Source: a virus. From it: 40,840 nt of DNA. The DNA lies in the IMG/VR virus record IMGVR_UViG_3300023106_000018, positions 1-40,840 of that record; one strand, given 5' to 3'. The notes beneath the pieces were generated by a model that was given only the letters and a program-made list of their open reading frames with translations, was not told where the DNA came from and did not search any database. Made by a program: the position numbers and the translations under genes. Numbering within the stretch: position 1 is the first letter of the stretch; each line of letters starts with the position of its first letter. Positions 6,874 through 8,552 of the stretch are shown here, piece after piece.

Positions 6874-7163
6874 TTTGCATCCTCCAGGGCTTTTTCGTAG
6901 CCCTCGAATGCGTAGCGGACCAGCTTTGAACATGAGAACTGCCCTTCATCCTCGTCGCGAAGGCATTCCACCAGATATTGCAACGCCGCCTCAGTGCCCG
7001 ATGCCGGAGCAGCAGCAGCCGGCGCGGCGGCGAGCATTGCCGCCCACACCCCGTCGATGCTCGTGTTGCGGGACATGCGCAGTTTTACCCCGGCCAGTCG
7101 CATCTCTTTTGTCAGTGCGGCGGGGACGACCACCAGTTCCAGGCGCTTGATGATCGGGGTCAC
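6870..7163 (-). CDS. Hypothetical early phage protein
   Basis: The product is 97 residues from a GTG start at 7163 that overlaps the regulator's TGA (GTGA). The first 30 residues look beta-rich (IIKRLELVVVPAAL). An Ala-rich stretch (MLAAAPAAAAPA) links to a helical, acidic C-terminal part (ALQYLVECLRDEDEGQ, YAFEGYEKALEDAK). No catalytic motif or membrane helix is seen. Coupling to the tandem helix-turn-helix protein suggests early expression, perhaps as a partner of that regulator. The function is unknown. Confidence 0.6.
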   Translation of the reverse strand: MTPIIKRLELVVVPAALTKEMRLAGVKLRMSRNTSIDGVWAAMLAAAPAAAAPASGTEAALQYLVECLRDEDEGQFSCSKLVRYAFEGYEKALEDAK

Positions 7164-7510
7164 AGCTCACCCCCGACGCCCATCGAGCTGCGCACCTTCG
7201 GCGACACCAGGTCGTTACGCGGGATGCCAAATTGCATTTCGATCTCCTTGGCGCGGGCCAGCGGCACGTAGCCCTGGCGCAGCCACTGGCCCACGGCCTG
7301 GCGGGTGACGCCCAGCGCCACGGCCAGCTTGTTCCAGCTGCCGGCCTTCTCGACGGCCTTGTCCACCGCGCTGGTGGCGCGGGGCACTGGTTCGTCGGCG
7401 GCGAGCCATGCTTGAACGGTGCGCGGGCTGGCACCGAGGGCGCGGCCGAAATCCTGCTGGCGGCCGATGTGGGCGATGGCCATCTGCAGGCCGGTTTGTT
7501 TCTTGGTCAT
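7160..7510 (-). CDS. Tandem helix-turn-helix regulator (YdaS/Cro-like)
   Basis: The product is 116 residues, with AAGGAG seven bases before the ATG at 7510. Two helix-turn-helix units lie one after another: FGRALGASPRTVQAWL (about 23-38) and LAVALGVTRQAVGQWLRQG (about 62-80). The second continues into ARAKEIEMQFGIPRNDL, typical of the YdaS/Cro family. The first half aligns with the second, so the protein looks like an internal duplication. Cro/YdaS proteins repress phage promoters; here it may control the divergent promoters near 8600 or the repeated early promoters. It stands just downstream of the methyltransferase pair on the same strand. Its lack of a protease domain argues against a CI-type repressor. 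Confidence 0.82.
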   Translation of the reverse strand: MTKKQTGLQMAIAHIGRQQDFGRALGASPRTVQAWLAADEPVPRATSAVDKAVEKAGSWNKLAVALGVTRQAVGQWLRQGYVPLARAKEIEMQFGIPRNDLVSPKVRSSMGVGGEL

Positions 7511-7523
7511 GGTGTTGCTCCTT

Positions 7524-8552
7524 TTAAAGTAAATCGCTGAGGTCTTCTACAACAGGTCGGACAGTTCCGAAGGCGCATTCGATAAAGATGCGCGCCGCTT
7601 CGATGTTGATCGCGTTGCCGTATCCGGCGAGGCGGCCGGCGCGGTGGCCTTGGCCTTCTTTACCGGCGGGGGCATGCCAATCGGCGCGGCCTCGTCCCAC
7701 TCGGCCGGCAGACCCATCAACCAGCGGGAATGTGCCGGGTTCAACTGGCCGCCACTTTCCATCCCGGCATCCGAGCCAGTCAGCATCTCGCCAGAAACCG
7801 TCAACCAGCCCGCCAGGTGGTGCGCCACGTCGGCCAGGCTGATCTGCGGGTCGGTCGGCTTGCGGTTGCCCAACACTGGCGGCTTTGCCTTGGCCTGCAT
7901 CATGGTCGTGTCCGGCGTCGGCCAGCCGGCCAGCGTCGCCACGCCGTTGAGCGTAACCTGCGACTTGGTGCCGTCCTCGCGCCGGCCCGTCGCCGAGCAG
8001 TGCGCCATCGTCTGACCCCCAGCCCCATTCGCCGCCGCTGGCGTCGGCCACCCAGTACGTGCGGTCTCGGATGTGCGGAGCACCGACGCCCGCAGACGGA
8101 AACGCGACCGCCCCGAAGGCATAGCCCAGTCTTTCCAGACTAGCTTGTACAACGTCGAGCCAAGGTTCTGCGTCCTTGCTTGCAACCTGCTCACCAACAA
8201 TCCTTCGAGGGCGACACTGGCTGATGAGCCAATACCCGTGGGGGTAAAGATGTCGCTCGTCAGCAAACCCTTTTCCAGCGCCTGCTGCGCTGAAAGGCTG
8301 GCATGGGAAACTTGCGGACCAGACGTCTTCGTCGTCTCGCACCCCAGCAGATCGCAGAGCGAGACTCCAGCCCCCAAGCCCAGCGAACAGGTGCACTTGC
8401 CGGTATCCTCGCAGATCATCGGGTGAGACATCGGTGATACTCCTTTCGTCTACATCGCCGGGTGCTATGTGCCCAGCCTTGATTAAATTTCTCAACCACT
8501 GAGCCATATAAGGGTTGAATTCGTTGTAATACGCGCCCTGCTTGATCGCCAT
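7524..8552 (-). CDS. DNA cytosine C5-methyltransferase
   Basis: The product is 342 residues from the ATG at 8552, with AAGGA six bases upstream. It transfers a methyl group from SAM to cytosine in DNA. Motif I is HLFAGLGG (54-61, SAM binding). Motif IV is FPCQPFS with the catalytic Cys84. Motif VIII is IRDRTYWVA (161-169). The C-terminal motif X is GYGNAI. Motif VI, normally ENV, reads GEQV (120-123), as in some phage relatives. The Gly/Ala/Asp-rich stretch after residue 170 is the variable target-recognition region. The last residues are DLSDLL. It probably protects phage DNA from host restriction or marks it. About 295 codons overlap another gene in a different frame. Confidence 0.88.
7547..8431 (-). 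CDS. Overlapping out-of-frame gene, GWPTP/WLMG family
   Basis: The product is 294 residues, read in a different frame of the methyltransferase gene on the same strand. AAAGGAG lies eight bases before the ATG at 8431, one of the better ribosome sites in the region. The translation is not random: it holds [18 protein letters not shown] and [12 protein letters not shown], two GWPTP motifs, then [21 protein letters not shown] recognise these motifs as a phage protein family often found with C5-methyltransferases; the role is unknown. The protein ends in ELSDLL. It could modulate the methyltransferase or be an independent anti-restriction protein. That both frames are translated is inferred from the ribosome site and the motifs. 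Confidence 0.72.

Follow-up and report, generated by a model that had tools for sequence, protein, structure and literature searches.

C5-cytosine methyltransferases consist of a large domain, which carries motifs I-VIII and X, and a small domain, in which the variable region and motif IX lie and through which every specific DNA contact is made (PMC3404938). Split C5-methyltransferases function in trans (PMC3404938), and the passage of that paper citing Lee, Kam and Shaw 1995 describes M.EcoHK31I (YGGCCR) as a large polypeptide with motifs I-VIII and X and a small polypeptide with motif IX. Among split enzymes, M.AquI (CYCGRG) and the gp78 and gp77 proteins of phage Kampy also carry the catalytic part on one polypeptide and the recognition part on another; assembly of the two chains has been shown for M.AquI, whereas Kampy is known by sequence only. 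The coding sequence of the small chain of M.EcoHK31I reportedly lies inside that of the large chain in a different frame. Multispecific C5-methyltransferases are found in the Bacillus phages SPR, phi3T and rho11. Such enzymes carry several TRDs in a row and are used against many restriction systems (PMC12707154).

The locus described here lies in virus record IMGVR_UViG_3300023106_000018, whose 40,840 bases were analysed as a whole (the window) and include head, portal, terminase, tail, DNA polymerase and exonuclease genes. Two frames, M and W, are open on the same (minus) strand where the preliminary description had placed them; they overlap by 885 bases, such that W (8431-7547) is entirely enclosed by the M frame (8573/8552-7524) in a gene region of ~65% GC. 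We propose, with a probability of about 0.83, that the locus encodes one two-polypeptide C5-methyltransferase, of which M would be the large domain and W the DNA-recognition small domain. The relevant features are:

7524-8552, minus strand: M, C5-cytosine methyltransferase catalytic chain, 342 aa from the ATG at 8552 (PF00145; phrog_363)
8565-8559, minus strand: SD of M, GAAAGGA
8370-8387, minus strand: motif I of M (FAGLGG), from the translation; columns invariant in alignment A2
8289-8312, minus strand: motif IV of M with the catalytic PCQ (SFPCQPFS), from the translation; invariant columns
8184-8195, minus strand: motif VI position of M, where GEQV replaces the usual ENV and Glu is retained; G127, E128 and Q129 invariant in A2
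8061-8081, minus strand: motif VIII of M (APHIRDR), from the translation; invariant columns
7794-8036, minus strand: apparent TRD region of M, low-complexity and unconserved in the M frame by identity and site-class rates
7581-7625, minus strand: motif X of M, 15 residues (GYGNAIN motif); Y318, G319, N320 and A321 invariant
7547-8431, minus strand: W, second frame, 294 aa, proposed TRD-array and motif IX subunit (phrog_1008, same-phase overlap, selection test)
8431-8446, minus strand: W start, with AAAGGAG (8446-8440), an 8-nt spacer and the A of ATG, inside the DERSI-DV codons of M
8084-8164, minus strand: conserved 27-residue segment of W, a predicted beta-hairpin (W99 and K100 invariant; AF2 strands 95-103 and 109-117, pLDDT ~76-85)
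7925-8050, minus strand: W module 1, ending VATLAG, which clusters with modules from other loci
7808-7924, minus strand: W module 2, 39 residues, of a module family found in 13 loci
7694-7750, minus strand: motif IX-like C-terminal segment of W, 19 residues (hhalign against in-frame methyltransferases)

M matches PF00145 over residues 81-176 (1.4e-14), and motifs I, IV (PCQ), VI, VIII and X are recognised, with invariant columns; the earlier assignment of motifs I, IV, VIII and X is borne out. No motif IX is recognisable in M's own frame, and M lacks the combination of TRD and motif IX in one chain that defines a single-chain C5-methyltransferase. Together, M and W show the division of the EcoHK31I type, with motifs I-VIII and X in the large chain and motif IX in the small one. 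Judged by motif content, the proposed division would follow exactly the line between the large and small domains of C5-methyltransferases. The methyltransferase is closely followed on its strand by a gene for a YdaS/Cro-like helix-turn-helix protein (window 7160-7510, minus strand).

Because M codon position 1 coincides with W position 3, M2 with W1, and M3 with W2, selection on the two frames was read from the rates at these three site classes (M1/W3, M2/W1 and M3/W2, in that order below) in 74 independent pairs of 72-95% DNA identity. Before W, the rates are 0.075, 0.065 and 0.377, the pattern of plain M coding; after W, they are 0.052, 0.038 and 0.254. Over the catalytic motifs (0.117, 0.073 and 0.232) and over the end of W (0.117, 0.066 and 0.136), constraint acts on both frames. 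The TRD region behaves as W coding only (0.362, 0.090 and 0.044), with a ratio of M1/W3 to M3/W2 of 8.2 (6.5-10.2) as against 0.20 before W. Amino-acid identity was compared with that of the never-used third frame as a control: in the TRD region (41 pairs) it is 0.905 for W, 0.598 for M and 0.631 for the third frame, while upstream of W the corresponding values are 0.592, 0.904 and 0.604. Site-class rates and identities taken together thus indicate that W is conserved and that M's TRD-like stretch is not preserved as M sequence; selection switches wholly from M to W in the TRD region. M nonetheless stays open there, since it has to reach motif X. The preliminary description had the overlap covering both the catalytic motifs and the variable target region of M. 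The first part stands, but the variable region is not M's in any selected sense, since it is W that is constrained there. That description had also named an absence of purifying selection on the second frame as evidence against its proposal; across the 74 pairs, W is strongly constrained. These patterns argue that W is a real, ancient and conserved protein.

Searches of both translations against phage proteins assigned M to phrog_363 (3e-76) and W to phrog_1008 (2e-27), and both frames are present in loci of the subfamily, in agreement with the earlier recognition of W as a member of a phage family that accompanies such enzymes. W has no match in Pfam, NCBIfam or PADLOC, and its assignment to a known defence or counter-defence family was rejected on that basis. 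A profile search of W against PDB sequences gave no match, and the low-confidence AlphaFold model of W alone (pLDDT 61, pTM 0.29) matched no PDB structure.

The GWPTP motifs of W would be the starts of TRD cassettes. Modules of W arrays begin with [W/L]PTP and have a median length of 39 aa; we collected 525 of them, in 113 clusters, from 185 loci with 1-6 modules each. They change position and number between loci, one cluster being found at different positions, and W module 2 of the window has 33 of 41 residues in common with locus L005 in the W frame. Homologous parts occur in mycobacteriophages. In ShiLan gp70 and 19 relatives, LLPTP modules and LAPAFSEWMMGWPAGW lie in the methyltransferase's own frame, between motifs VIII and X. 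In Kampy, the parts are on separate chains, with motifs I-VIII in gp78 and the modules, the same motif IX-like segment and motif X in the adjacent gp77. Recognition-part ORFs such as Kampy gp77 (L270:1504-2088) are annotated as a second DNA methylase, yet they lack catalytic motifs. The W profile aligned with in-frame methyltransferases at E 1.5e-7 (hhalign score 61.6, compared with a maximum of 24.0 in 100 shuffles), and 43 of 54 in-frame or split modules matched W modules at E<0.01, compared with 3 after shuffling. For an in-frame TRD module of one mycobacteriophage (actinophage L194), the best W-module match reached E 3e-7, and the matching string is present in module 1 of the window. The in-frame motif IX-like segment is collinear with motif IX of M.HhaI (KLHPRECARVMGYPDSY) in an alignment that alone is not significant, and a model of the in-frame enzyme matches M.HhaI. 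Since homologous modules and the same C-terminal motif occur in frame at the position of the TRD and motif IX, the most likely role of W in the enzyme is DNA recognition. Of the other W motifs singled out in the preliminary description, one of 12 letters falls in the conserved beta-hairpin region and the other, of 16 letters, corresponds to motif IX. Sequence comparison thereby places the in-frame and split forms as links between the two-frame subfamily and ordinary enzymes.

An unknown regulatory or anti-restriction partner, as W had initially been proposed to be, would be a separate protein overprinted on an otherwise complete methyltransferase. It is true that W starts independently and forms a polypeptide of its own, and that its N-terminal third, which lies over the catalytic motifs, has no known methyltransferase counterpart and is not accounted for by a TRD role. 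However, the M frame has neither a conserved TRD nor a motif IX, and the modules and C-terminal motif of W are homologous to the TRD and motif IX of in-frame methyltransferases. We therefore regard a regulatory or anti-restriction role as improbable.

It could also be argued that M and W form a single chain and not two separately initiated ones, with a programmed frameshift taking ribosomes out of M into W and a return shift reaching motif X. The parts do lie along the DNA in the order of one enzyme, the relative phase of M and W never varies, and the second ORF of Kampy-type split genes bears the TRD, motif IX and motif X. The start of W speaks against such a product. Its AAAGGAG, noted in the preliminary description, is present 8 nt before the ATG at 8431, and 219 of 239 loci have a W start with SD pairing. 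The GGAG is spelled by the DERSI codons of M in 90 of 147 loci, compared with ~14% expected from codon use, and the ATG is supplied by the DV codons in 126 of 133; a 7-nt SD match precedes 67 of 239 W starts as opposed to 0 of 239 in the third frame. At the minority of loci without an exact start site, W may initiate elsewhere. In addition, W is constrained over the catalytic motifs (M3/W2 0.232, compared with 0.377 before W), where a frameshift product would have no use for the W frame, and a second shift would be required to regain M for motif X. Frameshifting is, if anything, slightly less probable than a regulatory role, and two separately initiated chains of one methyltransferase remain the preferred reading.

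None of 200 synonymous shuffles of M kept the W frame open (3.9 stops expected), and none of 200 shuffles of W kept the M frame open (5.8 stops expected); over 158 loci, the mean chance of an open frame is 0.023 for W under M shuffling and 0.0005 for the reverse. Although long spurious ORFs do occur at ~65% GC, a chance or artefactual ORF is ruled out by these shuffles together with the conservation of W, which is kept across proteobacterial, Firmicutes, Bacteroidota, cyanobacterial and actinobacterial phages.

The two-frame arrangement was found in this phage and at least 250 relatives examined. By tblastn, W occurs in 207 phage records, and in nearly all of these, as at N15 gp58 and in epsilon15, the annotation gives the locus as one cytosine methyltransferase gene. 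Both frames are annotated in K1H, PhiXhv-28 and Paenibacillus phage Diva, and W alone in PMG1; annotators' hints of W include “g49 internal gene” (Diva) and “Mte8-like protein” (K1H). Viral loci were sampled via W, via M or from named phages, and because they were picked by similarity to W or M, the counts that follow describe this subfamily rather than all C5-methyltransferases. The same-phase overlap is present in 80 of 80 bacterial genome loci, in all viral loci found through W, including two that are truncated or rearranged (L008 and L006), and in 89 of 90 further viral loci; of ~180 viral loci in all, essentially all have both frames. The phase is identical in phages of Paenibacillus, Lacticaseibacillus, Bacteroides and Porphyromonas, and in a cyanophage, a Krischvirus and a Vequintavirus. 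Homologues keeping only one frame open, which the preliminary description had named as evidence against its proposal, did not appear among intact relatives in the subfamily.

Individual loci show further variations. L182, the single apparent exception and a candidate methyltransferase without W, was rejected as such on finding a divergent nested frame: a very divergent methyltransferase (1462-2226) contains a divergent frame (1577-2188) in the same phase, with ETWPSWGTMLNGE, LPTIGANEYRG and LNPCFGDWVMGWVTGW, which suggests that the arrangement reaches beyond this subfamily. No free-standing W without any methyltransferase was found, and the plasmid matches checked, from Citrobacter and Klebsiella (L188:1399-2298 and L189:1142-2248), have interrupted frames, with both proteins apparently broken. 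At five loci (L049, L050, L061, L089 and L090), the M frame runs several hundred bases past the end of W, which may be truncated or restart downstream. In Klebsiella phage SBP, a gene annotated as an HNH restriction endonuclease directly follows the nested methyltransferase gene (L178:1979-2455), and the two could possibly form a restriction-modification pair.

In the two-chain enzyme that we propose, the M frame would supply cofactor binding and catalysis (motifs I-VIII) as well as motif X, reading through the TRD region as an unconserved spacer. W, translated from its own ribosome site inside M, would supply the small domain, in which motif IX comes after a series of exchangeable target-recognition modules of ~39 residues each. 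M and W would assemble, W would pick the sites to be methylated and, with several modules, one enzyme would probably have more than one target site, as in the multispecific Bacillus phage enzymes; its role would be to shield phage DNA from host restriction. It is likely, if a little less so than for the locus itself, that the same holds across the subfamily: two domains of one enzyme would be encoded in two frames, only W would code for the specificity domain, an array of interchangeable TRDs with multiple targets, and the annotated TRD would be an unselected by-product.

M.EcoHK31I, compared here by description rather than by sequence, resembles M/W in that two polypeptides form the enzyme with the same motif split. 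For this split, M.EcoHK31I serves as a biochemical precedent. The two differ in that the TRD of M.EcoHK31I is assigned to the large chain, whereas selection puts the TRD modules of M/W in the second frame, and in that M/W is a phage gene with cassette arrays. In M.AquI and Kampy, the genes follow one another and motif X is in the second chain, while here W is nested and motif X is in M. The Bacillus phage enzymes have tandem TRDs, to which the 1-6 exchangeable modules of W may correspond, but in frame in one polypeptide, and the homologous LLPTP modules and motif IX-like segment of ShiLan gp70 are likewise all in one frame. No earlier report of this dual coding in phages was found in the open-access literature, and the genome paper on P. 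larvae phages makes no mention of it. What appears new is the placing of TRDs in a second frame, their exchangeable arrays, the spread of the arrangement in phages and prophages, and the in-frame and split forms as links.

In conclusion, two proteins are probably expressed from each of hundreds of phage and prophage genes catalogued as a single cytosine methyltransferase, with N15 gp58 and that of epsilon15 as examples. If only the annotated chain were cloned, the enzyme would lack its DNA-recognition part, and predictions of specificity based on that chain would be wrong; if the proposal is true, the variable region mapped in many database entries does not set specificity. The loci would form a large natural set of exchangeable modules for target recognition in C5 methylation. 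They would also be a clean case of long overlap, where selection can be followed region by region in either frame. An old oddity, M.EcoHK31I, would thereby become a widespread phage strategy.
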